Source: a virus. From it: DNA of 64,000 bases. Below the pieces are notes generated by a model. The model was not told the DNA's origin. It saw only the letters and a list, made by a program, of their open reading frames with translations, and ran no database searches. The stretch covers positions 1 to 64,000 of IMG/VR virus record IMGVR_UViG_3300025423_000009. The stretch is one strand, 5' to 3'. A program made the position numbers and the translations under genes. Shown one piece after another: positions 7,220 through 41,419 of the stretch; positions within the stretch are counted from its first letter, which is position 1; every line of letters starts with the position of its first letter.

Positions 7220-7227
7220 TATAAATA
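7220..7227 (+). promoter_or_regulatory. Late promoter of homing endonuclease gene 1
   Basis: TATAAATA with a T-rich upstream flank. The conserved stem-loop begins 5 bases downstream, at the expected transcription start. Confidence 0.7.
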
Positions 7228-7232
7228 GAGAT

Positions 7233-7263
7233 GTTGGCCACGGTATTACTAGTACCTGCCAAC
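7233..7263 (+). ncRNA. Conserved 5' stem-loop, copy 1
   Basis: Outer stem GTTGGC/GCCAAC, then 5' CAC opposite 3' T, inner stem GGTA/TACC and a 7-base loop. This is the same architecture as 21821-21850, 41390-41419 and 25678-25707 (minus strand), with compensatory base changes. Being next to the late promoter, it would form the 5' end of the homing endonuclease mRNA. Confidence 0.7.
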
Positions 7264-7290
7264 TCTACACAAACCCAATTAAAGGCAACT

Positions 7291-7944
7291 ATGCAGCAGA
7301 ATTATATTTATCGCAATCCTACTAGAGAAGTACTCATCAATCTTCCCAAACTTCCATTCTTCTATATCATTGAAGAGTGTGATAGTAAAAGATATTATGC
7401 TGGAATAAAACATTTTAATCCAGATCCTGGCAAATTTATGACTAAAGGTGGATATAGAACATCGTGCAATGAAATTAAAAATAAAGATGTTGCTAATTAT
7501 ATCATTAGAAGAATTGTTTTTATTGAAGATAGAAAGACTCTATATTTGCACGAATTTCGTTTTCTAAAATACGTTGATGCTTTCAACAATTCTAAAATAA
7601 TCAATGGTAATTATGGACCTCTCAATCCAAATACTACTGGATGTTCATTAAAGACACGCGAAAAAATAAGATTGGCTAAGCTTGGAAAACCACAATCGGA
7701 ATCACACAGAAAAAACAATAGTCTTTGTCGTATTGGAATCAAACGAAAACCGCACACTAAAGAGACTATAGAAAAAATGAGATTGGCTAAGCTAGGTAAA
7801 TCTCATTCTTCAGAAACTAAGCAAAAGGTGAGATTGAGTAAGCAAGGCCAATTGTGGTGGAATAATGGATCTAGATCTTGTATGGCTAGGGAATGCCCAG
7901 GGATTGAATGGATTAAAGGTAGAAAAAGAATAGCCTGGACATAA
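7291..7944 (+). CDS. Homing endonuclease, diverged GIY-YIG type with NUMOD3 repeats (HEG1)
   Basis: A 217-residue protein starting at ATG 7291 (MQQNYIYRNP). An upstream ATG at 7231 would run through the conserved stem-loop and is not used. The N-terminal domain has LPKLPFFYIIE and YYAGIKHF, which can be read as a degenerate GIY...YIG pair, followed by a YIIRRIVF segment and HEFRFL, possibly the catalytic Arg and Glu. Residues 125-185 hold NUMOD3 DNA-binding repeats (TREKIRLAKLGKPQS, KETIEKMRLAKLGK). It is much more AT-rich than its neighbours, a sign of transfer. It lies between the tail operon and gp32; T4 also carries a seg gene near gene 32. HEG3 at 41454 is its closest relative in the window. 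Confidence 0.75.
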   Translation: MQQNYIYRNPTREVLINLPKLPFFYIIEECDSKRYYAGIKHFNPDPGKFMTKGGYRTSCNEIKNKDVANYIIRRIVFIEDRKTLYLHEFRFLKYVDAFNNSKIINGNYGPLNPNTTGCSLKTREKIRLAKLGKPQSESHRKNNSLCRIGIKRKPHTKETIEKMRLAKLGKSHSSETKQKVRLSKQGQLWWNNGSRSCMARECPGIEWIKGRKRIAWT

Positions 7945-7959
7945 AAATCCAGGCTATTC
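7928..7959. terminator. Bidirectional terminator between HEG1 and gp32
   Basis: Stem GAATAGCCTGGA/TCCAGGCTATTC with an 8-base AT-rich loop between two convergent genes. It overlaps the end of HEG1. Confidence 0.65.
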
Positions 7960-7976
7960 TATATTCTTGGCCGATA

Positions 7977-8912
7977 TTAGGAATTTGCGAGACGGGCGAA
8001 GTACGACATACCCTTGCCGCCGTCTTCATCTTCAGTCGTTCCAGACAAGCCGTCAACGACCTCTTCTTCCGTAGCCGCCACCGGACCAGCTTCAGGTTCT
8101 GGAGACGTGTGACGAGGAGTCGGAAGCTCATCGACTTCTTCGGCCGTAGCCGGACCGTCCAGAGCCGTTTCACCGACAACTTCGATCAGCTTCTTCTTCA
8201 GCTCCGCGTAGCTCTTGTAGTTCTTCGGATCGAGGAAGTCCTTGAGCGGATATTCCTGCTTGTAGATCGCTTCCAGAGCCTTGTCGTCACCCTTGAAGAG
8301 TTCTGACGAAGCTTCGAACTCGGACTTATCGTAGTTGCGATAACCTTCGACCTGACGAATCTTCAGCTTGAAGTTGGCGCCAGACCAGAAGTCGAACGGA
8401 TTGATCGGCTGCTCGCCGGGGAACTGCGGATGCATCAGATCGTCGATCTTATCCCAGATCTTCTTACCGAACTTGAATAGGAATACCTTGCCCTCGTTGG
8501 CCGGATTGCCGGGATCCGAGATCACCAGAACGTTGGCGACGTAATGAAGGCGGCGTTTCTGAGCTCGAGCTTGCTTACGCTCCGAAGAGTTGTCGTCGGA
8601 CGAAGCATTCCAGAGTTTCGAGTTTAGTTCGGACACCGGATCATTCTGACCGATCGAGGTTAGAGAGTTCTCGATGTACCAGCGACCCGTGGAGCCCTTG
8701 AAGCCATGATCCCAGTAGCGAACCCAGGCGACGTCTTCTCCCTCGGGAGCCGGAAGGAATCGAAGGACCGCGTATCCGTTTCCGGCCTTATCGACGGTCG
8801 GCGACCAGAAACGATCATCGGTCTCATACTTGTTGGCGTTGAGTTTCTCAGCCGCGGCCAGGAGCTTGCTCATGGAGGCTGAACGGTTTTGCTTTAATGC
8901 ACTGAATGACAT
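7977..8912 (-). CDS. 32: Single-stranded DNA-binding protein gp32
   Basis: A 311-residue protein; T4 gp32 has 301. It coats single-stranded DNA in replication, recombination and repair. The N-terminal basic segment is followed by the OB-fold core with GKVFLFKFGKKIWDKI (residues 142-157), which matches T4 closely, and ANFKLKIRQVEGYRNYD. The C-terminal 50 residues are acidic (EEVVDGL, TEDEDGG), as needed for protein contacts. The H-C-C-C zinc ligands of T4 are not visible in the region between IENSLTS and RRLHYV, so the zinc subdomain is probably replaced. The gene has its own leader with a stem-loop and an unstructured A/C-rich tract. Confidence 0.92.
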   Translation of the reverse strand: MSFSALKQNRSASMSKLLAAAEKLNANKYETDDRFWSPTVDKAGNGYAVLRFLPAPEGEDVAWVRYWDHGFKGSTGRWYIENSLTSIGQNDPVSELNSKLWNASSDDNSSERKQARAQKRRLHYVANVLVISDPGNPANEGKVFLFKFGKKIWDKIDDLMHPQFPGEQPINPFDFWSGANFKLKIRQVEGYRNYDKSEFEASSELFKGDDKALEAIYKQEYPLKDFLDPKNYKSYAELKKKLIEVVGETALDGPATAEEVDELPTPRHTSPEPEAGPVAATEEEVVDGLSGTTEDEDGGKGMSYFARLANS

Positions 8913-8972
8913 ATATGTTGTTGTATGTTTGGTTGTGTGTTTGTATTTGCCGAGCTACTCACTCGACAGCAA
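8913..8972 (-). promoter_or_regulatory. gp32 mRNA leader: stem-loop plus unstructured A/C-rich tract
   Basis: On the minus strand a stem-loop (TTGC...CGAG pairing with CTCG...GCAA, 8947-8972) is followed by about 35 bases almost free of G and U pairing partners (ATACAAACACACAACC and onward) up to the start codon. T4 gp32 represses its own translation by binding such an unstructured region 3' of a pseudoknot. Confidence 0.5.
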
Positions 8973-8989
8973 GAGATATGTATACTACC

Positions 8990-9622
8990 TCAAGAATCTT
9001 TTGATGTAAAGGCATCAATTGCGATCTGACGATAGGTCGGTATATGAAGCTCTCGAGCTAGAAGCTGTGCATACTTGCGAGCCTTCAGCGAATGCTCGGT
9101 CCAGAGACCAAGTGGATCATTCACCTTGGGCATCTCGCGATCGAGGAATCCGGTCAGTGTCTGCAGAATCGCTAGGCCATGAATCGATACTTTATCTTGC
9201 GAATAGGCCGCCAGAATCGGAGGAGGTCGAACACCATCGAGCCTATGATTGGCTTCGAGCATGTCGTCGAAGTCCGAGAACCTCTCGACTACGGACTTGA
9301 TTTCCTGAGAGAATCGATACTGCATTGATTCATGATAGGCACGAAGCTCGATGTATGGTTCCTCATTCATGGAACCGATCCACTTCTTTCCGGCCATCAC
9401 GTTCGCGGACACGTACCACAGGCACTCGTTGAATTCCGAATGCCTGCGAGCCAGCTTCTCGAAGAAGTATCGATCCTTGCGAGCCTCAAAGGCTTGAGCC
9501 GAGAGAGACTTCATCGAGAATCGATACTTCACGGCATCGAGCTTTCCCTCGAAATGAAGCTTGATCGAGGTGACCAAGTTCCATGCCTGAAGCGGAGTAA
9601 CCTTGTTCGAGGTCGATTCCAT
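8990..9622 (-). CDS. 59: Helicase loader gp59
   Basis: A 210-residue protein (T4 gp59 has 217) that loads the gp41 helicase onto gp32-coated DNA. The segment RKDRYFFEKLARRH (about residues 49-62), followed by WYVSANVMAGKKWIG, aligns with the T4 HMG-like N-terminal domain. The rest is helical. Gene order 33-x-59-32 on one strand is that of T4, with one extra gene between 33 and 59. It overlaps that gene by one base, so translation is probably coupled. Confidence 0.85.
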   Translation of the reverse strand: MESTSNKVTPLQAWNLVTSIKLHFEGKLDAVKYRFSMKSLSAQAFEARKDRYFFEKLARRHSEFNECLWYVSANVMAGKKWIGSMNEEPYIELRAYHESMQYRFSQEIKSVVERFSDFDDMLEANHRLDGVRPPPILAAYSQDKVSIHGLAILQTLTGFLDREMPKVNDPLGLWTEHSLKARKYAQLLARELHIPTYRQIAIDAFTSKDS

Positions 9623-9969
9623 CAGTGCTTGGCACGATTCTCGACCTTGCGTTCCCTGGCTTCAAGCTTACGCTTGGCACTCTTGGACGGCTCTCGACGA
9701 GGAGCCAGATGCGGAATCACCTTGCCATTCTCGTCAACCTGATTCTGACGAACCTTGATGAAGCGCGAGATCATCGGTCGAGGATTGTTGTTGATCTTGA
9801 TGTTGTACTTCTTCACGAGTTCGAGCATCGTGGCTTTATCCTTGTCGGAAGGCTTGACTCCAGTGTTGACGTACTTCTCGACATATGACTGAATCAGAGC
9901 GCGATCGCCTGGATCCATCTCGAGTGTAGATGAGTTAAGTTTGGTATCGATCATGGTGGTATGTGGCAT
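9622..9969 (-). CDS. Small basic protein between gp33 and gp59, unknown
   Basis: 115 residues (or 110 from the second Met at 9954). The sequence is helical with a strongly basic C-terminus (KSAKRKLEARERKVENRAKH) and a central NPRPMISRFIKVRQNQ segment that could bind nucleic acid. I do not recognise a family. It sits 2 bases downstream of gp33 and overlaps gp59, so it belongs to the 33-59-32 operon and may have a role in replication or late transcription. Confidence 0.6.
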   Translation of the reverse strand: MPHTTMIDTKLNSSTLEMDPGDRALIQSYVEKYVNTGVKPSDKDKATMLELVKKYNIKINNNPRPMISRFIKVRQNQVDENGKVIPHLAPRREPSKSAKRKLEARERKVENRAKH

Positions 9970-9971
9970 AA

Positions 9972-10217
9972 TTAAAGTAACATGGTTGAGGTTCTCTTTC
10001 GCCCCTTCACGGTGTTAAGTTGAATCGATTCCTTCTCGATCTTGCTTTTCAGCGGAGAGGTCAGAATCATCTTTGCGACGTCGATCGGATCGATGCCATG
10101 TTCATCACAAACATGAACGACCGCTTCCGAGTAACGCATGTGTTCTTTCTGGACCAGCAATTCGACTCGCTCGGCCAGAGTTTGCTTGTTGAGGACTGGC
10201 AATGAAGCTATAGTCAT
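9972..10217 (-). CDS. 33: Late transcription coactivator gp33-like
   Basis: An 81-residue protein. T4 gp33 (112 residues) bridges RNA polymerase and the sliding clamp for late transcription. The middle (RYSEAVVHVCDEHGIDP, then VAKMILTSPLKSKIE) matches the T4 region that binds the beta flap. The hydrophobic C-terminus STMLL resembles the T4 clamp-binding tail ending in FLL. Position at the head of the 33-59-32 cluster supports the call. It is shorter than T4 at the N-terminus. Confidence 0.7.
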   Translation of the reverse strand: MTIASLPVLNKQTLAERVELLVQKEHMRYSEAVVHVCDEHGIDPIDVAKMILTSPLKSKIEKESIQLNTVKGRKRTSTMLL

Positions 10218-10270
10218 GATGTGTGTTTAGTGGAGTGGCAAAGTTGAATCAGATTCATGTTAGTATCCTA

Positions 10271-10492
10271 TCACGGTTTCTTCTTTTGTACAGCTAATTG
10301 TTTCCCGAGGGAAGCTTTACAGGACTTGAATACCTTCTTCAGAAGATCCATGTCAATCGTTCGATTCGAGTAGGAGTCACGGCGACACATTTGAGTGTCA
10401 AAGCGACGGCGATAATCTTCTAACTGCTCGCGGTAGGAGTCACGTTCGCATATAGCATCAGTAAGCTTGAGTTGGGTGTCGGTGTATTTCAT
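10271..10492 (-). CDS. Small hypothetical protein, basic
   Basis: 73 residues from ATG 10492, overlapping the stop of the upstream membrane protein gene (ATGA). Charged and probably helical, with a run of Arg/Asp-rich residues and a basic end (QLAVQKKKP). No family recognised. Translation coupling puts it in the small-gene operon 11751-10271. Confidence 0.5.
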   Translation of the reverse strand: MKYTDTQLKLTDAICERDSYREQLEDYRRRFDTQMCRRDSYSNRTIDMDLLKKVFKSCKASLGKQLAVQKKKP

Positions 10493-10722
10493 AATTGTTT
10501 CTTCCAAGCGATGATGCCCCAGACATTCAGAGGAGCGAACATGAGCTGACAGAGCATCAATGCGGTCTGATTCGTGTTCCAAGCATAGGCGAACCAGATC
10601 GCACACGATAGCAGTCCAACGTACCACGTTAGTCGCATCTTCAAGATCGTGAGAATCATGCAGATCACGGTCAACATGAATGCGATCCATGAAAGAGTTT
10701 GATTGATCTCAGGTATATTCAT
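10489..10722 (-). CDS. Small membrane protein, PnuC/PQ-loop-like
   Basis: 77 residues from ATG 10722. Three hydrophobic segments are visible (about residues 9-27, 33-48 and 52-72), with the pattern YVGLLSCAIWFAYAW and NVWGIIAWKK, which recalls small PnuC or SemiSWEET-type transporters that work as oligomers. It would sit in the inner membrane. The substrate cannot be inferred; nicotinamide riboside is only a guess from PnuC-like spacing. Confidence 0.5.
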   Translation of the reverse strand: MNIPEINQTLSWIAFMLTVICMILTILKMRLTWYVGLLSCAIWFAYAWNTNQTALMLCQLMFAPLNVWGIIAWKKQL

Positions 10723-10732
10723 GCCAGAATGA

Positions 10733-11086
10733 CTATTCAAAGGTCGTCTCCTTGTAGATGACTATGACTGATCCATCCTCATGATTGATCGTTCCATAGA
10801 GTTGATATGTGCGAGTCTCGATGGTCGAGGCGGAAATTGGAATAGCTCGTCCATTGACGATCCAGTCGACACGCTTCTGAATCGGCCGTCGCATGAATTT
10901 AGGATAGTTGCCATCATGACACGTGTAAAGCTTCGAATCATCGAGCTCCATTCCATCAGCCGTGTGAATGCGGATGCGATACTTTCCCTCATTAGGCTCA
11001 AACTTTAAGACTTCTTTTTTGCCATAGTTTAGTAATGCAGCCTCTATGGCACGATGTTCATATTCATTGATCTCTGTCTCATTCAT
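10733..11086 (-). CDS. Hypothetical protein, possible SH3-like barrel
   Basis: 117 residues from ATG 11086, which overlaps the stop of the preceding gene. After a short acidic N-terminus comes a beta-rich region (KYRIRIHTADGMEL, YTCHDGNYPKFM, SVIVIYKETTFE). The D-G-x-Y-P motif is shared with the neighbouring 92-residue protein, so the two may be diverged copies of one fold. No enzymatic motif seen. Confidence 0.5.
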   Translation of the reverse strand: MNETEINEYEHRAIEAALLNYGKKEVLKFEPNEGKYRIRIHTADGMELDDSKLYTCHDGNYPKFMRRPIQKRVDWIVNGRAIPISASTIETRTYQLYGTINHEDGSVIVIYKETTFE

Positions 11087-11361
11087 ACTGAAATCTCCTT
11101 GACGGAATCCAGACGGAACGAACGCCATGCCTGCTTGTCGAGATCATACACGCAGATCACGTTCGAATTACGAGGCTGAACCTGCTCCATCAGATCCTTC
11201 TGTTTGAGAGCCGGATAGCTTCCATCCTTCAGTGTGCAGTTCATCGTACGAAGAGTGCCATCGGCCTTTCGAAAGACAACGGTCGTCGAATGACGACCAC
11301 GTAAAGACTCGATCAGAGCCGCTCGTTCCAAATCCGTATTGTTGAATGCTGTAATGTTCAT
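11083..11361 (-). CDS. SH3-beta-barrel fold small phage protein (DUF2693-like)
   Basis: 92 residues. The pattern RKADGTLRTMNCTLKDG, then NVICVYDLDKQAWRSFRLD, is typical of small phage proteins with a WYL/SH3-like barrel (DUF2693). Function unknown; such proteins are usually early accessory genes. It overlaps its neighbours on both sides, so translation is coupled. Confidence 0.55.
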   Translation of the reverse strand: MNITAFNNTDLERAALIESLRGRHSTTVVFRKADGTLRTMNCTLKDGSYPALKQKDLMEQVQPRNSNVICVYDLDKQAWRSFRLDSVKEISV

Positions 11362-11603
11362 TTTTGAAAGTTAGTAACACGAACCAGATCGATGTAGTCA
11401 CCAAAGCGAGCATCGAAAGTTTTGATCAGATGTTCATAGTCCGAGGAAATCATTTCCTCATGTACTTGATTGAGTTGAACTGGAGTGAAGCCAAGCTGCT
11501 TACCTAACCTTTGAGCATATCCAAGTAGAACAAAGGCATTCCCTTCTGGTCCATTCAAATTGATCTCAGGCTTACCGCGATGAATTGGAGCTCTAATTGC
11601 CAT
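11358..11603 (-). CDS. Conserved small phage protein, unknown
   Basis: 81 residues with the pattern GPEGNAFVLLGYAQRL and MISSDYEHLIKTFDARFG, which I recognise as a recurrent small protein of large phages without known role. Acidic, soluble and helical. It overlaps the 52-residue gene upstream by 11 bases. Confidence 0.55.
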   Translation of the reverse strand: MAIRAPIHRGKPEINLNGPEGNAFVLLGYAQRLGKQLGFTPVQLNQVHEEMISSDYEHLIKTFDARFGDYIDLVRVTNFQK

Positions 11604-11751
11604 AGTCTTCTAGATCATGATGTTTGCCGTATTTGGGGCGCCGACGATAATCCTTGACCGTCTCGTGTGCATGGCCAGGAGGAGGTACAGGTTTTCGTAG
11701 TGCATCCATAGCCTGAGCCGCGATGCTTTTCTTCTTTCTTTTAAGTTTCAT
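11593..11751 (-). CDS. Short basic protein, unknown
   Basis: 52 residues, starting ATG 11751 with a very basic N-terminus (MKLKRKKKSIAAQAMDALRK), then PVPPPGHAHETVKDYRRRPK. It overlaps the start of the next gene and lies 6 bases after the ligase stop, so it looks like a real operon member too short for routine calling. No known function. Confidence 0.45.
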   Translation of the reverse strand: MKLKRKKKSIAAQAMDALRKPVPPPGHAHETVKDYRRRPKYGKHHDLEDYGN

Positions 11752-11757
11752 ATAAAT

Positions 11758-12909
11758 TTAACGATCACCCTTCAGGCAATTGTTGGGATCAATGCGAGCA
11801 TAGTTTGGAACACCCAGACCAGTCAGTCCCATGAAAAGGAATGTCACTTTACGACCGATCATCTTTTGTTGTTGTGCCAGAACGCGCGCGCGATCTTCAT
11901 GAGAACCCATAAACACGGCCTCGAATTCCTTACCTTTCCATCGAACCACCGCATTCTGAGCCGTACCATGCCGCTCTCCCTTGCCCTCGACGATAGCCTG
12001 AATGACACACTCATCATCGTCCTCGGGCTTTACCTTCAGAAGACTGTTCGAGCGCTTATGTTCGTAAGCCGAATTCATGTCTCGAAGAATGACACCCTCC
12101 TGATTATCATTCAGAGCCTCTTCATAGATCGCAAGCATCTTTTTTTCGGAATCAACGAGCATGGTATGAACTTTCTCACAAAAATCAAATTTGGCAATGA
12201 TGTTTTTGTCAATCCAAGCCTTGCGAGTCGCATAAGGAGTGTCTTCCGTCATTCCGGCAAAGCCATATCCATCATAGATGTAGAATCGAACCAGACTCTT
12301 GGACTCATTTAGATCCGAGGTCGATGGCTTGGATTTACGAATGATCGAGGTTAAGTCATTCAGGCGCTGGCGTAGCTCGTAATTGAAAAGCTCTCCATCC
12401 AGAACCGCATCGGGCCACGCTTCAAAGAATCCTTCTAGTGCCTGAACAATATGAGGAATCGACGCATAGAGCTTACCTCCACGTGTCAAGAATCCACGAT
12501 TTGTGGCCGCACAGCGATTACCATTGAATTTGATCTGAACTCCCCATGAACCTTGAGTGAAGTCAATAGACTTTTTACGATCACGATATTTTTTGGCAAG
12601 CATGACTTCGATATGACGCAAGGACTTATCAATGTCCTTTACATTTTGCCAATATCCAATCTCTTGATTCTTCTTCCATTGTGCCTCGGCTTCAAAGAGA
12701 GCCTGATCTTCCGCGGAACGCTCATTGGCACGGCCAACATTAGTGGCCAGTGAAGGATACCATTCGGTCGTGGTTGTTTTACCGCCTTCCTGACCGTAGA
12801 TCGTGCGATACTTGGCTCCATCGACTTCGATGGTCCAGTGACGAATCATGCCGGTCGAGGCTCGAGAATATAGAATTGGAAAAATCTTTTTCACTTTGCA
12901 ATTAGACAA
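11758..12909 (-). CDS. 30: ATP-dependent DNA ligase
   Basis: 383 residues from TTG 12909; a GTG at 12894 is an equally possible start. It seals nicks in phage DNA using ATP. The N-terminal 100 residues resemble a WGR-type domain (RHWTIEVDGAKYRTIYG). Nucleotidyltransferase motifs follow: I, KFNGNR at about residue 128 (the usual KxDG has Asn for Asp); III, VLDGELF; IV, EGVILR; V, LLKVKP. A C-terminal OB fold follows (CVIQAIVEGKGERHG, VTFLFMGLTGLG). The D-to-N change in motif I deserves checking, although similar KxNG motifs occur in some phage ligases. Confidence 0.82.
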   Translation of the reverse strand: MSNCKVKKIFPILYSRASTGMIRHWTIEVDGAKYRTIYGQEGGKTTTTEWYPSLATNVGRANERSAEDQALFEAEAQWKKNQEIGYWQNVKDIDKSLRHIEVMLAKKYRDRKKSIDFTQGSWGVQIKFNGNRCAATNRGFLTRGGKLYASIPHIVQALEGFFEAWPDAVLDGELFNYELRQRLNDLTSIIRKSKPSTSDLNESKSLVRFYIYDGYGFAGMTEDTPYATRKAWIDKNIIAKFDFCEKVHTMLVDSEKKMLAIYEEALNDNQEGVILRDMNSAYEHKRSNSLLKVKPEDDDECVIQAIVEGKGERHGTAQNAVVRWKGKEFEAVFMGSHEDRARVLAQQQKMIGRKVTFLFMGLTGLGVPNYARIDPNNCLKGDR

Positions 12910-12953
12910 GAGTCAATTTGTATTTTTTGCCATCAATCTCAACGATACGGCCC
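12902..12953 (-). pseudogene. Displaced C-terminal codons of the beta-solenoid gene
   Basis: In the frame of the solenoid gene shifted by one base, this stretch encodes CEGRIVEIDGKKYKLTLV and stops at TAA 12902-12904, next to the ligase start. The peptide looks like a genuine protein end (beta-hairpin pattern). The 28-base insert just before it is not a multiple of three. Confidence 0.5.
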
Positions 12954-13703
12954 TCACAGGTGGAAGATTGCTCGAACAATCTTCCACGTGGAAGATTGCT
13001 CGGGATTCTTTTTGATGATGTTCACCTTTCCATGAGCCATCGTGCCTGTCACAATTTCCTTACACGTGATGACATCATGTGCATTTTTCATGTAGGGAGA
13101 AGTTCCAGCAAAGATCTTGTAGTCACGACCAGCCTTGATGCCCTCACCAGCATTGATGCCACAGCCAGCATTGATGCCACAGCCAGCCTTGATGCCCGTG
13201 CCAGCCATGATGTCCGAGCCAGCCTCGATGCTCCAGCGAGCGTTGATGCCCTCGCCAGCCATGATGTCCGTGCCAGCCTTGATGCCACAGCCAGCCTTGA
13301 TGCCCGCGCCAGCCTTGATGGCATAGCCAGCCTTGATGCCCGTGCCAGCCTTGATGCCCGTGCCAGCCTTGATGTCCGCGCCAGCCTCGATGCCCTCACC
13401 AGCCTCGATGCCCTCACCAGCCTCGATGTCCCAGCCAGCCTTGATGCCCTTGTCAGCCTCGATGCCCTTGTCAGCATTGATGTACCAGCCAGCATTGATG
13501 CCCTCGCCAGCCGTGATGCCCGAGCCACTTTTAGCTTGAATGTATCCAGTGACGATGAGCGATCCAGAAAAATACACCATTCCTAAGTCTTTTTCGATGA
13601 TGAGATGCCCGTCGAAGTGCCCGTCGAAGTTACTTGAATCGGTGTAATGATTCCGCGAATCCAGATCTTTTTTAGTGATAGTGTAGATAGTGTATGTCTT
13701 CAT
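12954..13703 (-). CDS. Hexapeptide-repeat beta-solenoid protein, C-terminus apparently frameshifted
   Basis: 249 residues. After a unique 60-residue N-terminus (MKTYTIYTITKKDLDSRN...), residues 62-205 are about 24 hexads of the form (I)-x-A-G-x-G, for example GIKAGTGIKAGYAIKAG, which should coil into a parallel beta-helix. A non-repeat end, KEIVTGTMAHGKVNIIKKNP, closes it. The stop at 12954 is caused by a 28-base palindromic duplication. Without it the frame would continue to 12902 and add CEGRIVEIDGKKYKLTLV. Function unknown; such solenoids are often structural. The early promoter at 13713-13740 lies just upstream. Confidence 0.65.
   Translation of the reverse strand: MKTYTIYTITKKDLDSRNHYTDSSNFDGHFDGHLIIEKDLGMVYFSGSLIVTGYIQAKSGSGITAGEGINAGWYINADKGIEADKGIKAGWDIEAGEGIEAGEGIEAGADIKAGTGIKAGTGIKAGYAIKAGAGIKAGCGIKAGTDIMAGEGINARWSIEAGSDIMAGTGIKAGCGINAGCGINAGEGIKAGRDYKIFAGTSPYMKNAHDVITCKEIVTGTMAHGKVNIIKKNPEQSSTWKIVRAIFHL
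12960..13002. repeat. 28-base palindromic duplication
   Basis: GTGGAAGATTGCTCG occurs at 12960 and 12988, and its inverted arm CAATCTTCCAC at 12977-12987, giving a perfect 11-bp stem at 12960-12987. It can form a strong hairpin and may also act as a terminator. Confidence 0.7.
13100..13540. repeat. 18-bp tandem repeat array coding for the hexapeptide solenoid
   Basis: About 24 imperfect units with the core CCAGCCTTGATGCC every 18 bases. The period of six codons leaves several other frames open, which produces long false reading frames on both strands. Confidence 0.85.
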
Positions 13704-13712
13704 TCTGATACC

Positions 13713-13740
13713 ATTCTACCATGAAGCCTTGACTTGTACA
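13713..13740 (-). promoter_or_regulatory. Early (sigma70-like) promoter
   Basis: Minus strand: -35 TGTACA, 16-base spacer, -10 TAGAAT. The spacer ends CTTCATGG, a feature shared with several other early promoters of this window. Reads into the solenoid gene. Confidence 0.6.
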
Positions 13741-13754
13741 TAGGAAAGTGAAAG

Positions 13755-21807: not shown

Positions 21808-21815
21808 CATAAATA
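21808..21815 (+). promoter_or_regulatory. Late promoter of homing endonuclease gene 2
   Basis: CATAAATA, one mismatch from TATAAATA, with the upstream TTTTG also found before the HEG3 promoter. The stem-loop starts 5 bases downstream. Confidence 0.6.
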
Positions 21816-21820: not shown

Positions 21821-21850
21821 GCTGGTCGCGATACGTCAATATCCACCAGC
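21821..21850 (+). ncRNA. Conserved 5' stem-loop, copy 2
   Basis: Outer stem GCTGGT/ACCAGC, 5' CGC opposite 3' C, inner stem GATA/TATC, 6-base loop. Differs from copy 1 by paired changes at four positions. Confidence 0.7.
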
Positions 21851-21874: not shown

Positions 21875-22504
21875 ATGCAGCAGAATCATATTTATTTGGT
21901 CTATAAGACCACGAATAGAATCAATAATCATTTCTACGTAGGTGTTCACAAAAACAAAGGAATAACGTTTGATGGTTATTTGGGGTCTGGTACCGGATTA
22001 AAACGGGCAATCTTAAAATATGGAAAAGATAATTTCTATAGAGAAACTCTTTTTCAATTTGATACTGCAGAAGAAGCTTATAGAAAAGAACGTGAGATAA
22101 TTGGAACATCATATTTAACTGAAGAATGTTATAATATGCATCCCGGTGGACAGGGAATTCGAAATACTCTTATTTATATCCGTAGTCCTGAATGGCGTAA
22201 GGCTGTCTCTAGGGCAGCAAAAAGACAGGTTCATTCCATAAAACGTCGTCGAGAATCCAGTATAAGAATGTCGGGTGAAAAAAATATTGCTTGTAGAACA
22301 GATGTTCGTAAAAAGATTAGTTTGGCTAAAAAAGGAATAAAAAGATGGTATGATCAAAACGGGGCAATATCATTTGCATTTGAATCGCCAGGACCTTTAT
22401 GGAATCCGTGTCAAGGATTAAAATGGTTTCGTACAATTGAAGGAGATACGCGCTTATGTCTTCGTCGTCCTGGCCCTAATTGGCTTTTAGGCAAAGGGTT
22501 TTAA
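21875..22504 (+). CDS. GIY-YIG homing endonuclease (HEG2)
   Basis: 209 residues. A typical GIY-YIG domain: YLVYKTTNRINNHFYVGVHK, DGYLGSGTGLKRAILKYG and the catalytic Glu in AEEAYRKEREIIG. A basic middle and a short helix-turn-helix-like region (NUMOD-type, DVRKKISLAKKGIK) follow. It shares its promoter, stem-loop and N-terminus (MQQNHIY) with HEG1, although the catalytic domain is different, so the leader appears to have been exchanged as a module. AT-rich. The last 29 bases overlap the convergent SegE-like gene. Confidence 0.85.
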   Translation: MQQNHIYLVYKTTNRINNHFYVGVHKNKGITFDGYLGSGTGLKRAILKYGKDNFYRETLFQFDTAEEAYRKEREIIGTSYLTEECYNMHPGGQGIRNTLIYIRSPEWRKAVSRAAKRQVHSIKRRRESSIRMSGEKNIACRTDVRKKISLAKKGIKRWYDQNGAISFAFESPGPLWNPCQGLKWFRTIEGDTRLCLRRPGPNWLLGKGF

Positions 22505-25052: not shown

Positions 25053-25649
25053 TTATATATGAGTATTCAATTCCGCTTTACGCCTTATCCATGATTCTTT
25101 CATTTTTTTCCGAGTTTCTTCTGAATGAGTTTTGCCACTCATTCCCTTTGTTCTATTTCCCGGTTTTCCTTTTTTTGCGATGGATAGTTTTTCCCGCATT
25201 TCTTTAGATTTTGATTTGCCCTTTTGCCATTTGGACATTCTTTTACGAGTTTCTTCTGAATGAGTTTTGCCTGTAAACCCACCAATTCTACCAACCTGCC
25301 CTTCAGATATTTTAATCCGATGATCTTCAGACAATGATACCCCTTTATGTGATTCGGATATCTTTTTGCAAACTTCTTTAGAATGATTGATAAAAGGAGA
25401 ATGTATACCTCGCATCATTTGATATGCTCGTTTATCACCTGGCATTTTATAAATTCTCCAAAGCAAATAATGTGCAATAATATGTTCTTCGTGTGTTAGA
25501 TATGTAAAATTATATTCCTCATCTGTACCACCGGCATGTCTGGGTTTAATGTGATGCCGATATAAGGTTAATCCAGAATTTGAATTCCAAGATTCTTTAA
25601 GAAGTTTGCGAGACTCAACTAGCTTAGTATAAATAAGATTGCTGAACAT
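25053..25649 (-). CDS. HNH homing endonuclease with NUMOD3 repeats (HEG4)
   Basis: 198 residues. The HNH core is LYRHHIKPRHAGG ... NFTYLTHEEHIIAHYLLW (residues 31-67). Then come repeated NUMOD3 DNA-binding motifs (GKTHSEETRKRMSKWQKGK and GKTHSEETRKKMKESW). AT-rich against its nrd neighbours. It lies freely between nrdB and nrdA. Homing genes in nrd genes are known, for example mobE in Aeromonas phage Aeh1 and I-TevIII in T-even nrdB. It carries the same late promoter and 5' stem-loop as the three GIY-YIG type genes. Confidence 0.85.
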   Translation of the reverse strand: MFSNLIYTKLVESRKLLKESWNSNSGLTLYRHHIKPRHAGGTDEEYNFTYLTHEEHIIAHYLLWRIYKMPGDKRAYQMMRGIHSPFINHSKEVCKKISESHKGVSLSEDHRIKISEGQVGRIGGFTGKTHSEETRKRMSKWQKGKSKSKEMREKLSIAKKGKPGNRTKGMSGKTHSEETRKKMKESWIRRKAELNTHI

Positions 25650-25677: not shown

Positions 25678-25707
25678 GCCGATGGGTACATCACTACCGC
25701 GATCGGC
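25678..25707 (-). ncRNA. Conserved 5' stem-loop, copy 4
   Basis: Minus strand: outer stem GCCGAT/ATCGGC, 5' CGC opposite 3' C, inner stem GGTA/TACC, 6-base loop. Two outer-stem pairs differ from all other copies yet still pair. It ends 28 bases before the HNH start codon. Confidence 0.7.
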
Positions 25708-25715: not shown

Positions 25716-25723
25716 TATTTATA
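25716..25723 (-). promoter_or_regulatory. Late promoter of homing endonuclease gene 4
   Basis: TATAAATA on the minus strand, just after the nrdB stop codon. The stem-loop starts 8 bases downstream. Confidence 0.65.
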
Positions 25724-28156: not shown

Positions 28157-28257
28157 TTGATCTTATTTATACGTTTGAGTTTCTTGCGTCGAAGAGTCTT
28201 GGCGGCCAGAACGTTGTTCTTCAGGATGCCTTTGATCGATTCATTGAGAGATTTCAT
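28153..28257 (-). CDS. Duplication-derived 34-residue open frame
   Basis: ATG 28257 starts a frame that repeats the first 20 residues of the acidic protein (MKSLNESIKGILKNN...) and then reads TLRRKKLKRINKIK through the late promoter to a stop overlapping the next ATG. It would be a free targeting-like peptide with a basic tail. It is possibly a by-product of the duplication. Confidence 0.35.
   Translation of the reverse strand: MKSLNESIKGILKNNVLAAKTLRRKKLKRINKIK
28164..28171 (-). promoter_or_regulatory. Late promoter (duplicate pair with 28265-28272)
   Basis: ACG-TATAAATA-AG on the minus strand. The second copy at 28265-28272 is identical in the octamer. Confidence 0.75.
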
Positions 28258-32395: not shown

Positions 32396-32396
32396 A

Positions 32397-34616: not shown

Positions 34617-34629
34617 TGAAGTAAAATCT

Positions 34630-35451: not shown

Positions 35452-35464
35452 GATGTAGTAAGAT

Positions 35465-35680: not shown

Positions 35681-35691
35681 GTCTATTTCGT

Positions 35692-35699
35692 TATTTATA
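35692..35699 (-). promoter_or_regulatory. Late promoter
   Basis: TATAAATA on the minus strand between the ligase-like protein and the 71-residue basic protein. Confidence 0.7.
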
Positions 35700-35704
35700 C
35701 GAAT

Positions 35705-36919
35705 TCAACGTTGCCAGCCTTTAACCACGTCTGGACTGAAGTTAGCTTTGGAGAACTCCAGTCGATCGACCAGCTTGACGGTTCCGGCCTTGGTTCCGAC
35801 CACGTAGCCTTCCTGTCCGGTTCGTTCGTATCCATCCTTGGTCTTCAGAAACGTCGAGATTCCTCCAAGACGATTTAGCTGAGCAATCAATTCCTTCTTG
35901 GCTCCCACCAGTTGAGCCTGAAGCTTGAATGCCTTGACGATGTTTGACAGATTCTCTCTGGAGAAGAAGTCGAACGTGATCTGACGTCGTGCATTGACGG
36001 CCTGCTTACCCTTCTCGGTCTTCTTCGAAGCCACTTCCCGATCGAAGCGAGCGTTCATCCAGGCCACGAGCTCCGTGGCATGCTTCTGTGGATCATCGAT
36101 CTCTCGGCCCGCACGAACCTTCGAATTAGCAAAGGTCTCGATGGTCTGAGCCAGATCAGGATTGGATTGCAAGGCTTTTAGAATCGAGGACGGAATGGAC
36201 TTGAGAGTGGCCTCGGCTTCCTTGAGAGTCGCATCGACTTTACCGAGGTCTGCGGTGGATGATACCTTCTCCGTGCCGATACCCTTGAGATCCGCCGTGC
36301 GCCACCAGATCGAAGGAATTCGCTTAAACGATTTGGTGTCTACTCCCGGAGAAGCATGGAGTGCACTCAGCTTACCGGTATATGACGTATGAAACACCAC
36401 GCCGATCTTGGCGGCCATGATAGCCTTGGCTTCCGATGAATCGAGTGGAACCGCGTAAACGATCGTGTTTGGATGAAAGGTGACGTAGTCTCGACCTTGA
36501 ATCTTCTGACGCTTCAGAGTGTCGGACGTGAAGAGCAAATCTCCTTGAATGATTCCTCGAATGCCAAGCTTGGAGAACTCGATCAGAGCGACCTTCATCT
36601 TGTTATTGAGATCTCCGGCCTCGATGTGATCGTCGATGTCCTGTGGAGTCTTATACACCTCTGGAACTTTATTGAAGATCGACTTCTTGGCCACGAAGAA
36701 CTTACCATCGGCTGGATCGGTACCACAGAAAATTGCCGGCGCGCCATCCCACTTGACCGTGACGGAAGCCGTGGCTCCTTTTCCGGTCAGAGAGTCACGA
36801 ACCGCACGAAGAGCCTGAATGGCCGACTTGGCGCCCTCGATACCACCATAGAGGACCTGATCCTCCACATGAGTTAGATGTCCAGAACCTTCGAGAATGA
36901 ATTGCTTGAAAGTCATCAT
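35705..36919 (-). CDS. Capsid-targeted ligase-like covalent nucleotidyltransferase (DUF6267-like)
   Basis: 404 residues from ATG 36919. MMTFKQFILEG|SGHLTH has the targeting pattern with site I-L-E-G. The core shows motifs of the DNA/RNA ligase and capping superfamily in order: I, VTVKWDGAPA (Lys 56); III-like, RGIIQGDLLF; IV, GQEGYVVGT; V, TVKLVDR. Similar proteins in cyanophages are usually left as DUF6267. If active it would carry a nucleotide on Lys 56 and could join or cap RNA or DNA ends. The substrate is unknown. It overlaps no gene and follows the 300-residue protein directly. Confidence 0.6.
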   Translation of the reverse strand: MMTFKQFILEGSGHLTHVEDQVLYGGIEGAKSAIQALRAVRDSLTGKGATASVTVKWDGAPAIFCGTDPADGKFFVAKKSIFNKVPEVYKTPQDIDDHIEAGDLNNKMKVALIEFSKLGIRGIIQGDLLFTSDTLKRQKIQGRDYVTFHPNTIVYAVPLDSSEAKAIMAAKIGVVFHTSYTGKLSALHASPGVDTKSFKRIPSIWWRTADLKGIGTEKVSSTADLGKVDATLKEAEATLKSIPSSILKALQSNPDLAQTIETFANSKVRAGREIDDPQKHATELVAWMNARFDREVASKKTEKGKQAVNARRQITFDFFSRENLSNIVKAFKLQAQLVGAKKELIAQLNRLGGISTFLKTKDGYERTGQEGYVVGTKAGTVKLVDRLEFSKANFSPDVVKGWQR

Positions 36920-36923
36920 ATCA

Positions 36924-37826
36924 TCATTCGGCTGAGTCAGAAGCTTCAATCTTTACTAGCGGCTTGATAGTCTTGGAAGTGTATCGCTCGATCGAGACGT
37001 CCGTGGCCTTCACGGATTTAACGGCCACGATCGTTCCCATCTTCGGATAGTTTTCAACGTTGTGAAGGAACACGACCTCGTGATTCTTGAAGTAATGATC
37101 GTAAGCGATCTTTCCAAACTTCTCCTCGATCTTCTGAAACTCTTTGGGAAACTTAGCTTTCAGCTCAGCGATGATTGATCCAGGAATCTCGGAAGTGACT
37201 TCGAATCCACCACGATTGGCCAGATCGATCAATGCGCGCTCGACTTCGATGGTCGAGAAAGTACCTCCGAGCTTAAAGTCATAAGCGTGTCCGGACTTCT
37301 TAACCTTCACGGCCTTGAGTTCATACTCGGCTTCCGGAAGCATGATGTCTTTTCCACCCGAAGATCCGCCACCTAAAGTCGCGTAGTCATACATGAAGTA
37401 GAACAAGACTTCACCGGGACCGATTCCTTTGACTCCATAGTTGTATAGTCTTGCAAATGATTTGCCGCTTTCGAGCTCGGAGTTTTTCAGTTCAGCCAAT
37501 GCGTGATTGAACTCTTCCTTCTTAATCGTCTTGCTCTTTAAAGTCTTAGATATATGGAACTTTGGAAAGTAGTACTTGCAGAAGAGGTATTGAATCTCAC
37601 GCTTGTTCTTCAGAGTCTGAAAGTCCGTGCCGGTTAGATTGAGTTGAGTCACGTGTTCGGCGCGATTGAGGAATTCTTTATCTAGTTTGTCGACGTCAGA
37701 CTTCTCAGAAGTGGCCTCGTTGATGATGACCTCCGCACGATTGATGAATGCTATGTCAAGCCCATACGTTTCAGGATCGATCGATTTGAGGCAATGGCCG
37801 CGAAATTCATTGAGCGTCTTCTTCAT
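36924..37826 (-). CDS. Hypothetical protein, possible PD-(D/E)XK-like fold
   Basis: 300 residues. The middle GPGEVLFYFMYDYATLGGGS ... GKDIMLPEAEYELKAVKV has the spacing G-E-x...D-x(n)-E-x-K found in PD-(D/E)XK nucleases. The N-terminus MKKTLNEFRGHCLKS looks like the targeting helix but has no cleavage Glu. The C-terminal part is beta-rich. Nuclease activity is an inference only. Confidence 0.45.
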   Translation of the reverse strand: MKKTLNEFRGHCLKSIDPETYGLDIAFINRAEVIINEATSEKSDVDKLDKEFLNRAEHVTQLNLTGTDFQTLKNKREIQYLFCKYYFPKFHISKTLKSKTIKKEEFNHALAELKNSELESGKSFARLYNYGVKGIGPGEVLFYFMYDYATLGGGSSGGKDIMLPEAEYELKAVKVKKSGHAYDFKLGGTFSTIEVERALIDLANRGGFEVTSEIPGSIIAELKAKFPKEFQKIEEKFGKIAYDHYFKNHEVVFLHNVENYPKMGTIVAVKSVKATDVSIERYTSKTIKPLVKIEASDSAE

Positions 37827-37839
37827 GTCCTTCTATTTA

Positions 37840-38688
37840 TTAGATTCCTTGTTTCTCGATCGAAGCCGGAAGTTCCGTGGCCTTGGAATTCATGGCCGCT
37901 CGAGGCTTCAGAGTCACTCGAACTCCCTTATACTCCTTACCATCCACCTTGAATCGAGCCGAAGGCATCGCTTCCGCCGATAGAACCACACGCCTCTGTT
38001 GATCATTCAGGTACATATTCAGATCTCGATCATTAAGCCTGAATCCCACGGAAGCTCGAAGAGTGTAAGACTCTCCGGTCTTAGACAGTCGAAACACCTT
38101 TCCCTCACTTCGAAACTCAATATTGTCCTTGCTCTTCTTCGTATCCCTCTTGTACAATGGACCAAATACGGCTCGTCCGGCTAGCTTGCGATCCTTTACA
38201 GGTAGAAAGAAGCTCTTCTGACCTTCCGTGATGTCGATTAAACGACTGGCCACTTGGCGCAGAAATGCCGCGACCTCTGAATCCTTGGAGATGTTGCCGA
38301 TCCGTCCTCCATCGGCATGGAATGACAGGCCCGAGTAGAAGTCGATCTGAGAGGGATTTGTCACCCAATCCAGACAGAAGTAGCACGTCTCCTGAAACTT
38401 GCCATTGATCAGAGAAACGAAGGCCAGATCCGCCTTCGATCGAGTCTGGCGATCAAGATCTATGAGAGGATGATTGAAGACTCGATTGACGCCATAGATG
38501 TCCTTGAGCTTAATTGGTGTGTTGGCGATGGTTAGCGTGATCGGCTCACCGATGCGAAAGAGCTCAGAATTAAAGTAAGTCATGAACGCCGTGATGCCGC
38601 GTTCCATGGAAGACGGATCGTTGAGCTTGTATGACTTGTCGAGTGAGGCCTGCTGAAAGAGCAGGCCATGAGTCTTCGCGGATGGCAT
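37840..38688 (-). CDS. Hypothetical protein, late block
   Basis: 282 residues. Features: MPSAKTHGLLFQQASLDKSY, a KADLAFVSLINGK segment followed by CYFCLDWV, and a beta-rich C-terminus (VRVTLKPRAAMN). No family recognised. It has no targeting peptide. Lies 13 bases upstream of the 300-residue gene, which it may assist. A late-like octamer AATAAATA lies in the gap. Confidence 0.45.
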   Translation of the reverse strand: MPSAKTHGLLFQQASLDKSYKLNDPSSMERGITAFMTYFNSELFRIGEPITLTIANTPIKLKDIYGVNRVFNHPLIDLDRQTRSKADLAFVSLINGKFQETCYFCLDWVTNPSQIDFYSGLSFHADGGRIGNISKDSEVAAFLRQVASRLIDITEGQKSFFLPVKDRKLAGRAVFGPLYKRDTKKSKDNIEFRSEGKVFRLSKTGESYTLRASVGFRLNDRDLNMYLNDQQRRVVLSAEAMPSARFKVDGKEYKGVRVTLKPRAAMNSKATELPASIEKQGI

Positions 38689-38692
38689 GTCC

Positions 38693-39034
38693 TTATTTAC
38701 AAGGGGCAGATGAAGGATGTGACGGTGATTGATAATTCTCGATGCGACGAATCACGTCCTGACGATCGCAGCAGGTGGATATCGAGATCATATTTGGAAT
38801 AGTCTCATGAGCCTCATCGAGCGTATTTTCTGAATCTATACCCTTGAGCTTCTTAATGATTGGAGCCTTACTCTTGGCCAGACACCGTGCTACGGCGCGA
38901 GAAGCAGATACGGATTCAACGACATATTCCCGCTTGGCATAGTTAAACACGTCTCCGATTCGACGGCGAATCTGTCCCGGAGGAATGTCGGTCTGATCGA
39001 GCTCGATGTCATTATATGATATGTTATTTTTCAT
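38693..39034 (-). CDS. Hypothetical protein
   Basis: 113 residues, basic middle (QIRRRIGDVFNYAKREYVV) and two adjacent Cys near residue 88. Soluble. No recognised family or motif. Follows a small membrane protein gene. Confidence 0.45.
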   Translation of the reverse strand: MKNNISYNDIELDQTDIPPGQIRRRIGDVFNYAKREYVVESVSASRAVARCLAKSKAPIIKKLKGIDSENTLDEAHETIPNMISISTCCDRQDVIRRIENYQSPSHPSSAPCK

Positions 39035-39037
39035 AGA

Positions 39038-39181
39038 TTAGTCTGATTGATGATTATCCTGTGGTTCATTTCGAGTCGTATATGTGATGATCTTCCAGGC
39101 CATGAAAGCGAGTGGAAACCAAACGATCGCGATGATCGAAATCATGATACAGGCCAGAATGAATCGTACAAGTGCCTTCAT
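39038..39181 (-). CDS. Single-pass membrane miniprotein
   Basis: 47 residues: a hydrophobic segment LVRFILACIMISIIAIVW continuing to about residue 30, then a polar tail. Its ATG overlaps the exonuclease stop (ATGA), which supports it as real. Unknown function. Confidence 0.5.
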   Translation of the reverse strand: MKALVRFILACIMISIIAIVWFPLAFMAWKIITYTTRNEPQDNHQSD

Positions 39182-39777
39182 GCAATCGGAATCAAGTCTC
39201 GAAGGTATCGATACAGTTCGACGGTCTTACGAATGTCGTACGAGGCATCATGTGCCTGAGAGTCGTCCCATCCAAGTTCCGCGCACTTGCATACCGTATT
39301 CAGCTTAAAATTGGGCAGCGCCCCGCGAATCGACTGAACATACCATGCCGCGGCTTGCATGACACAGAGAGCCGGAACCCAGAACCACGAGCCAAAGAAC
39401 TCGTCGTTGTTCTTGCGAAAGAACTCGCGAACGAAGTCCGCATCGAACTGTGCGTTATATCCGACAAAGTGCATCTTATCGGCCTTGTCGAACTTATCAC
39501 AGTGACGACTCAGGAACTCGACGAATAGGCCATAAGCCTGCGTGGCCGACATCGGCCTGGCCATGAGTTCATCGAGAGTAACCTTGCCGAGCTTCAGGGC
39601 TTCTGGATCGGAGGCTAAGACAATGAACGGACAGAACTTCAGATCGATCTTCTCGAGCTCATTGAGATTCGAGTCCGTGATGATGGCGGACAGTTGATGG
39701 ATGTTGTGTGTCTTTCGATCGATGCCATTGGTCTCGACGTCGATGAAGCAGTATTTGTATTGAGGGCGATCTTTCAT
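39178..39777 (-). CDS. DnaQ-like 3'-5' exonuclease
   Basis: 199 residues from ATG 39777. The DEDDh motifs are visible: CFIDVETNG (D-x-E), FVGYNAQFDADFV, and HDASYDIRKTVELY (H-x4-D). The fold trims DNA or RNA from 3' ends. T4 DexA is a larger relative. It precedes tRNA-Gly on the minus strand. Confidence 0.75.
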   Translation of the reverse strand: MKDRPQYKYCFIDVETNGIDRKTHNIHQLSAIITDSNLNELEKIDLKFCPFIVLASDPEALKLGKVTLDELMARPMSATQAYGLFVEFLSRHCDKFDKADKMHFVGYNAQFDADFVREFFRKNNDEFFGSWFWVPALCVMQAAAWYVQSIRGALPNFKLNTVCKCAELGWDDSQAHDASYDIRKTVELYRYLRDLIPIA

Positions 39778-39784
39778 TGTAAAT

Positions 39785-39860
39785 TGGAGCATCGGATGGG
39801 ATTCGAACCCACGACCAGCACATTGGAAGTGTGCGACTCTACCAACTGAGTTACCGATGC
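39785..39860 (-). tRNA. tRNA-Gly (TCC)
   Basis: 76 bases: acceptor GCATCGG/CCGATGC, anticodon arm GCACA-CTTCCAA-TGTGC (anticodon TCC), T-arm GTGGG-TTCGAAT-CCCAT and encoded CCA. Confidence 0.92.
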
Positions 39861-39861
39861 G

Positions 39862-40209
39862 TTAGCGGCCAACATTGATTAGTTGAGGATTCTGCAAAAA
39901 GAACGAGCTTTCTGGCGTGACGATGGTGCATGACCTTTGAACCAGAGCATGCATCAGATCTTTGGCCAACTTCTCGGCCTCGCTGTCGATGTCCGCTGAA
40001 GTCTTTGGAAATCGCGGATAGTTGATCAGGCCAATGATGGCTCCGGCTTCTCGACCTCCGGTATAGACGTACTCGGTCGGCGTGACCGTGACACATGCAC
40101 CCTCAGCGCAATGATGCTGACAGAAGTGCTTGATCATAGTGATGTCTCCGGCGATGTAGATCTTAACCTCATAGCTCGCGGCCTCGGACGTAATTGAATT
40201 CGAATTCAT
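39862..40209 (-). CDS. Conserved small phage protein, unknown
   Basis: 115 residues. EVKIYIAGDITMIKHFCQHH ... ACVTVTPTEYVYTGGREAG ... GLINYPRFP is a pattern I know from many large phages without a defined role. Two Cys and a His pair near residue 31 might bind metal. Overlaps the next gene start by 4 bases. Confidence 0.55.
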   Translation of the reverse strand: MNSNSITSEAASYEVKIYIAGDITMIKHFCQHHCAEGACVTVTPTEYVYTGGREAGAIIGLINYPRFPKTSADIDSEAEKLAKDLMHALVQRSCTIVTPESSFFLQNPQLINVGR

Positions 40210-40415
40210 ACCTTGATTTCCTTTCCATCATGAACGTTCATAAGACACATGCGCTCATCGAGCATCGCGTCGATGCGTTCGGTCCATCGCTTCTTCAGTT
40301 CCGGAGTCTTGGCTTCGTCTCGTCCTTCCTTGAACATCGCGAGTATCTTGTCGACCTGCTCGATCATGTCGAGAATCTGCTTCTTGTCTTCAGGAGTGAG
40401 TTTGTATTTCATCAT
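40206..40415 (-). CDS. Small helical protein
   Basis: 69 residues from ATG 40415 (MMKYKLTPEDKKQILDMIEQ). A charged helical hairpin likely, ending MCLMNVHDGKEIKV. No known function. Coupled to the next gene by ATGA overlap. Confidence 0.5.
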   Translation of the reverse strand: MMKYKLTPEDKKQILDMIEQVDKILAMFKEGRDEAKTPELKKRWTERIDAMLDERMCLMNVHDGKEIKV

Positions 40416-40419
40416 ATAA

Positions 40420-40866
40420 TTAAGAATTGAATAGTCCCTGAGCCCAGGACTTCTTGGTATGTCCATTTGCGGCGGCCCAACGAACAAACAGCCCGAGCTC
40501 TCGTCCATAGGCTTCGATCTCGAGCGGATCGTCCCAGTAGTTTTCCGCAGGATCTTGATTTCGCATGTGTTCTCCAATCACAAACTGCTTGATGTGAACC
40601 GTCTCATGAGCAATTGATAATAGACTCAGCCTTGTATCAACGGATGGATCCACTCGAATCGTATACTCACCATGACCGACCAAATTGTCTGGAGTCACAT
40701 CCGCACATAGGCCTTCGCGCTTCATCAGACCTCGTTCGGCGATCACATTGATGATCGTCCTATGAGTCTGATCGGATGCCAGGTGATTCAGTGTATATTG
40801 AATCAAGGATGCGATCAGTTCAGCTTTCTGCTCTGAGAATGGCTGCTCAAAATATATTCGTGCCAT
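40420..40866 (-). CDS. HExxH-type metallopeptidase-like protein
   Basis: 148 residues from ATG 40866. LLSIAHETVHIKQF carries H-E-x2-H, the zinc peptidase motif, with a candidate third ligand in the acidic EIEAYGRELG helix about 35 residues on. Small proteins of this type are common in large phages. A peptidase activity is inferred from the motif only. Confidence 0.6.
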   Translation of the reverse strand: MARIYFEQPFSEQKAELIASLIQYTLNHLASDQTHRTIINVIAERGLMKREGLCADVTPDNLVGHGEYTIRVDPSVDTRLSLLSIAHETVHIKQFVIGEHMRNQDPAENYWDDPLEIEAYGRELGLFVRWAAANGHTKKSWAQGLFNS

Positions 40867-40870
40867 AGTA

Positions 40871-41137
40871 TTACTTATCGCTTGGATATGCGGCAATCAG
40901 CTTGCGAGCCTGAATCAAAACCTGCTCAAGCTCATCGAGGTCAAAGCTCAACTTTCCCTCGGAGTCTTCGAAACACTGAGTCAGAACGATGAACGGTCCG
41001 CCTGCCTCATCCTGAATACGAATCTTTGTCACGGAATGACCAAAGATCGGATTCTCACCGACACGATGTATCGAGACCTCGATCGGAGTGGTGACGAGGT
41101 ATTTCACGGATGGAATGTCTTTATTTTCAGTGCTCAT
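40871..41137 (-). CDS. Small hypothetical early protein
   Basis: 88 residues, beta-rich start (SVKYLVTTPIEVSIHRVGEN) and a C-terminal helix (LDELEQVLIQARKLIAAY). No recognised family. First gene after the early promoter at 41183-41210. Confidence 0.5.
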   Translation of the reverse strand: MSTENKDIPSVKYLVTTPIEVSIHRVGENPIFGHSVTKIRIQDEAGGPFIVLTQCFEDSEGKLSFDLDELEQVLIQARKLIAAYPSDK

Positions 41138-41182
41138 TGGTGTGAATTTTGAATTTGTTAAGGTTGTTTTTATTCTGAGATA

Positions 41183-41210
41183 ATTCTATCATGAAGACCT
41201 GAATTGTAAA
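41183..41210 (-). promoter_or_regulatory. Early promoter
   Basis: -35 TTTACA, 16-base spacer containing CTTCATGA, -10 TAGAAT on the minus strand, after a T-rich tract. Divergent from the HEG3 late promoter. Confidence 0.65.
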
Positions 41211-41251
41211 CAAAAAAGTGCAGGAGAATCTCTACTTGTATGAGTTTACGA

Positions 41252-41340
41252 TCTAATTGTGTGAAAATAATCATTTTTGCGTTCTAATTGTGTCAAAGAT
41301 GTCTTTTCAAGGGCTTGGAGAGATCTAATTGAATGAAACG
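41252..41340. repeat. Three short TCTAATTG repeats
   Basis: TCTAATTGTGTGAAA, TCTAATTGTGTCAAA and TCTAATTGAATGAAA occur near 41252, 41282 and 41323 in an AT-rich stretch between the early promoter and HEG3. A stem GCAAATC/GATTTGC follows at 41351-41376. The rest of 41138-41453 holds no other gene. Confidence 0.5.
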
Positions 41341-41375
41341 GATCGATCCTGCAAATCATTTGAAATTGAGATTTG

Positions 41376-41383
41376 CATAAATA
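41376..41383 (+). promoter_or_regulatory. Late promoter of homing endonuclease gene 3
   Basis: CATAAATA, identical to the HEG2 promoter core. The stem-loop starts 6 bases downstream. Confidence 0.6.
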
Positions 41384-41389
41384 AAAGAT

Positions 41390-41419
41390 GCTGGCCACGG
41401 TATGCAACTACCTGCCAGC
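41390..41419 (+). ncRNA. Conserved 5' stem-loop, copy 3
   Basis: Outer stem GCTGGC/GCCAGC, 5' CAC opposite 3' T, inner stem GGTA/TACC, 6-base loop. The start codon is 34 bases downstream. Confidence 0.7.

Follow-up and report, generated by a model that had tools for sequence, protein, structure and literature searches.

The window analysed here, a stretch of 64,000 nucleotides, is part of a 117,947-base record of an uncultivated virus that carries the T4-like genes gp32, nrdA and nrdB and, on the same contig as the four copies described below, a gene for the gp55 late sigma factor. Four homing endonuclease genes (HEGs) are found in the window, each preceded by a late promoter and a hairpin, HP1. 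HEG A (7291..7944, plus strand) encodes a 217-aa protein of a diverged GIY-YIG type (phrog_314). Its sense late promoter TATAAATA is located at 7220..7227 on the plus strand with a predicted start at 7233, HP1 occupies 7233..7263 and was assigned to the minus (antisense) strand by covariation, and a predicted antisense late promoter GATAAATA lies at 7305..7312 on the minus strand, within the start of the HEG. The same arrangement precedes HEG B (21875..22504, plus strand; 209 aa, GIY-YIG, phrog_314 with an E-value of 5e-36), with the sense promoter CATAAATA at 21808..21815 (plus), HP1 at 21821..21850 (minus, antisense) and the predicted antisense promoter AATAAATA at 21889..21896 (minus). HEG C (41454..42116, plus strand; 220 aa, GIY-YIG type with NUMOD3) has the sense promoter CATAAATA at 41376..41383 (plus), HP1 at 41390..41419 (minus, antisense) and the predicted antisense promoter GATAAATA at 41459..41466 (minus). 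HEG D is encoded on the minus strand (25053..25649; 198 aa, HNH-type with NUMOD3) with nrdB and nrdA on its two sides; its sense promoter TATAAATA is at 25716..25723 (minus), HP1 at 25678..25707 on the plus strand, which is antisense for this copy, and the predicted antisense promoter TATAAATA at 25628..25635 (plus).

A preliminary description of the window had reported the four stem-loops with their stems, internal loop and late promoters, and all of them were recovered in place. Six positions vary on both sides, namely outer pairs 2, 3, 5 and 6, the R-Y pair and inner pair 2; HP1 starts 5, 5, 6 and 8 nt after the promoter octamer in the four copies and ends 24-34 nt before the ATG. No other late promoter of the window carries the stem-loop, as a covariance model (R1), built from 117 distinct copies that include these four, finds exactly the four at 37-53 bits. 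That description included neither the antisense late promoter predicted at the start of the HEG nor a second hairpin (HP2) around the Shine-Dalgarno site. As a separate observation, the minus strand at 28171 and 28272 contains a tandem duplication of about 100 bp consisting of a late promoter and the first codons of a small gene (MKSLNESIKGILKNNVLAAKT...), and several late genes nearby have similar MKS/MKK leaders at their start.

Two further copies are present on the contig, both beyond the window. The one at 97.7 kb is upstream of an intact HEG. At contig positions ~95,063-95,200 on the plus strand (11565-11700 of locus L004) a complete element stands before a HEG of which 42 codons remain; this copy is an orphan control module that has outlived its HEG. 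The claim that all homing genes carry the element holds for the window (4/4 HEGs) but not for the contig, where a HEG-like ORF at 89,746-90,222 on the minus strand (also in L004), GIY-YIG/NUMOD3-like and in tandem with the preceding gene directly behind a late gene, lacks the element and has no obvious late promoter of its own.

Distribution of the element and its client nucleases

Viral contigs were scanned with a degenerate pattern derived from the core in which the outer stem was left free. At least 119 viral stretches matched, in most of which the outer stem is completely paired despite its great sequence diversity, and the paired copies in contigs of uncultivated viruses numbered more than 100, which is a lower bound from these core-pattern scans. 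A second pattern that omitted the promoter gave the same picture in viral contigs. Applied to 257 Gb of bacterial and archaeal genomes, the promoter-free pattern yielded two matches, both inside host coding genes, and a bacterial or prophage origin was rejected because cellular genomes gave just these two chance matches. The occurrence of the stem-loop is far beyond chance.

A blastn search against named phages gave nothing useful, and the covariance model was required. Cultured phages with the element are Variovorax phage V45v66, Pseudoalteromonas phage XG4 and Rhizobium phage IG49, the latter with two copies, and all three also encode gp55. In IG49, HP1 is kept upstream of two HNH genes (loci L335 and L336), an obvious ATAAATA late promoter is absent on either side of HP1, and gp55 is present but diverged. 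An R1 scan of T4, S-PM2, S-CRM01, Aeh1 and Aeromonas phage 25 gave no match. Rfam searches yielded only tRNAs in the window and left the element unmatched in six loci at E-values up to 5, and a known RNA family was rejected for want of a match to any Rfam covariance model.

When loci were collected by HEG protein similarity alone, HP1 was found upstream in 19/21 GIY-YIG and 49/80 HNH homologues, with the R1 match always on the strand opposite the HEG. The structure thus precedes homologous genes in other viruses, one of the points on which the preliminary description turned. The proteins preceded by the element match NUMOD3, SegE/GIY-YIG, several HNH families, a TnsA-like endonuclease and TnpB (OrfB_IS605/Cas12f1-like). 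On inspection by eye a second TnpB, 74% identical and on a different contig, is arranged in the same way; its altered inner stem is missed by R1. These two genes for an RNA-guided nuclease (L117 and L340) thus share the late promoter and hairpin module. The element-bearing nuclease at 1646-2611 of L054 (minus strand) combines a cysteine-rich N-terminus with a TnsA-like endonuclease domain, and is 40% identical over 141 aa to the window ORF 3109-3561. The earlier picture was borne out in that the element covaries, accompanies HEGs together with a late promoter, is common to unrelated nucleases and resembles a private regulatory module.

The folding strand, the second hairpin and the facing promoter boxes

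The preliminary description had taken the element for the 5'-end hairpin of the HEG mRNA. In an RNA helix under selection G·U pairs are tolerated and A·C pairs are not, and the strand that shows G·U is therefore the one that folds. Across 1287 pair cells in the 117 distinct copies, the sense strand showed 44 A·C and 0 G·U with 96.5% of the cells paired, whereas the antisense strand showed 44 G·U and a single unpaired cell (99.9% paired). By this asymmetry selection acts on the fold of the antisense strand and not on a 5'-terminal hairpin of the HEG mRNA; the hairpin had been described on the wrong strand. The filter used to collect copies handled A·C and G·T alike, and 17 distinct outer stems had A·C and none G·T (p=1.5e-5 counting stems only). 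Both-side changes occurred at 9/11 pairs and every slid control was far lower. In an independent set, comprising the loci found by HEG protein and the three cultured phages, 10/11 pairs covary, inner stem included, and the antisense strand showed 15 G·U against 1 A·C; no DNA pattern was demanded of this set beyond R1, to which its alignment was fitted, so that these pair counts lean towards the model. With more copies aligned, whether the 117 or those found by protein, the covariation is overwhelming. The A·C bias of the sense strand was alike for tandem (14:0) and divergent (26:0) neighbours and therefore belongs to the element. The antisense-strand fold and the sharing of the module are well supported.

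HP2, a second short stem, is present between HP1 and the start codon in many copies and has the Shine-Dalgarno AAGG in its loop. It is smaller than HP1 and weak in the window's own copies, and its four inner pairs show about 47 A·C versus 1 G·T on the sense strand, a bias like that of HP1 which assigns HP2 to the antisense strand as well. A conserved CAGC is located just before or after the start codon, and an exact TATTTA follows 5 nt past it in 84/140 copies, any other offset occurring at most 11 times. The start codon takes four registers relative to CAGC/TATTTA (-5, +4, +5 and +6) while the spacing between the two motifs stays constant, which is not explained by a conserved 'Ile-Tyr' in the proteins; an N-terminal 'M-x-I-Y' protein motif was rejected on this ground. 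Read on the other strand the sequence is TAAATA-N5-GCTG, with a spacing equal to the TAAATA-N5-HP1 of the sense promoter, whose distance from HP1 is 5 nt in 71 copies. The antisense NATAAATA is exact at the HEG start in 4/4 window copies, and a TATTTA-like box was present at the HEG start in only 6/22 HNH and GIY-YIG relatives without HP1. From this arrangement the TATTTA box is predicted to be an antisense late promoter facing the HEG promoter, and the antisense boxes are more variable than the sense ones.

Past HP1 the antisense side is U-rich (56% T versus 36%). Most copies without a sense promoter have a T run there, e.g. ATTTTT. In a subgroup (L121, L133, L147, L148 and L174) a GTCAACAAAAAT-like sequence replaces the sense late promoter and gives a U-run after the antisense hairpin. 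A simple scan around copy B, the sole copy scanned, passed no intrinsic terminator. The internal loop of HP1 is conserved as R opposite GYG, which exceeds the needs of a terminator or a plain antisense hairpin and hints at a bound protein. The element was also considered as one end of a transposon-like pair and rejected as such, since no conserved motif was found after the HEG stop.

Proposed antisense control of homing genes and alternative explanations

The fold, its strand, the fixed geometry of the promoter boxes and the sharing by unrelated nuclease families are observations, and the reading that accounts for them with somewhat more than an even chance is that phage homing genes carry a portable control module, an antisense RNA that limits HEG translation in the manner of IS10 RNA-OUT. 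Two gp55-type late promoters would converge about 75 bp apart. Transcription of the HEG mRNA from the outer promoter would begin with the first base of HP1, and the inner promoter, at the start of the HEG coding sequence, would point back and yield an antisense RNA beginning at the conserved GCUG. This RNA of perhaps 60-70 nt would comprise the small HP2 at its 5' side with an anti-Shine-Dalgarno loop, then the conserved HP1, and would have its 3' end within the U-rich sequence across from the sense promoter. Because such an RNA would be complementary to the entire HEG leader, it is expected to anneal there and to keep ribosomes from binding, and the nuclease level would be held low, as RNA-OUT does for the IS10 transposase. 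The production of the antisense RNA, its start and end, its pairing and the resulting repression are predictions from the sequence layout. Points that count against this reading are the greater variability of the antisense boxes, the weakness of HP2 in the window, the negative terminator scan of copy B, the elaborate internal loop of HP1, and the retention of HP1 in IG49 where an obvious ATAAATA is lacking.

RNA-OUT of IS10/Tn10 is a 69-nt cis-encoded antisense RNA whose promoter faces the transposase promoter; its target is the translation initiation region, with which it pairs, and its end lies close to the opposing promoter (PMC5006887). As in the RNA-OUT:RNA-IN pair, the target here would be a nuclease of mobile DNA, the fold is selected on the strand opposite the nuclease gene (44 G·U versus 0, in agreement with the independent set), and a promoter box faces the nuclease promoter such that the RNA would cover the ribosome binding site. 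The systems differ in that many unrelated homing nucleases are involved here versus one transposase family, and predicted phage late promoters versus host promoters. RNA-OUT is a single hairpin, whereas the module described here has two hairpins and a conserved internal loop, and its repression is presumed. A phage antisense RNA near a homing gene has been described in cyanophage S-PM2, where CfrI is antisense to psbA (PMC5931967 and its reference 33); unlike CfrI, the present element lies opposite the HEG leader, and R1 has no match in S-PM2.

The best rival explanation, which is considered unlikely, is that the antisense strand forms a cis leader of the gene next to the HEG and repairs or insulates late expression of the interrupted operon. 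Element-bearing HEGs were opposite to both neighbours in 77 cases versus 32 with both neighbours in the same direction, and the antisense strand is consequently often the neighbour's sense strand; T4 HEGs are moreover known to embed promoters for neighbouring genes (PMC2988022). However, a tandem upstream gene, which would only receive antisense RNA, makes no difference to how well the strand bias and the antisense promoter are preserved. Nor do divergent neighbours differ much from other genes in having their own late promoter box (16/79 versus 329/1428, about equal), and compensation of the neighbour's promoter was rejected because these boxes are neither enriched nor depleted.

An element acting as single-stranded DNA or as a protein-bound antisense strand in recombination, replication or packaging, the two promoters being there by coincidence, is less probable still. 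DNA hairpins also tolerate G·T, as is generally known, the conservation of the internal loop (R opposite GYG) resembles that of a protein site, and one copy survived the loss of its HEG. Both promoter boxes nevertheless keep a fixed distance to hairpin and leader, the second hairpin sits on the Shine-Dalgarno site, and a partner element at the other end of the HEG was not found. The sense-strand mRNA hairpin of the preliminary description, protecting the late HEG mRNA or controlling its translation, is the least probable of the alternatives and was rejected by the G·U/A·C test, as G·U is absent from the sense strand (0 versus 44 A·C); the ribosome binding site is, moreover, outside HP1. In its favour, HP1 begins at the predicted sense start, and in T4 and Aeh1 a late promoter and an RNA hairpin precede homing genes (I-TevI/II/III, segB, mobE and seg43), the hairpins controlling translation and being described as sense-strand, mostly sequestering the ribosome binding site (PMC2988022). 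The present element likewise combines a late promoter with a hairpin upstream of a homing gene but, unlike the T-even hairpins, its HP1 stem excludes the Shine-Dalgarno site (24-34 nt before the ATG) and folds on the antisense strand.

If the antisense control module is extended one step further, the cassette, adopted by several unrelated nucleases including the RNA-guided TnpB, could act in trans, so that co-resident HEGs would limit one another, comparable to IS10 multicopy inhibition, and orphans would be anti-homing RNAs; this extension is regarded as doubtful. Antisense control of mobile nucleases is itself known, and the new aspect would be its portable form, common to unrelated enzymes. 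Searches of the open-licence literature yielded no account of homing genes with an antisense module, and control of homing-gene leaders by antisense RNA would, to our knowledge, be without precedent. The presence of the module in cultured phages makes it testable now, and as a sequence marker it would allow new HEG types to be found from the leader instead of the protein. So far only individual cases explain how a phage is spared the burden of its homing genes, and a single RNA module common to unrelated homing nucleases would offer a general answer.
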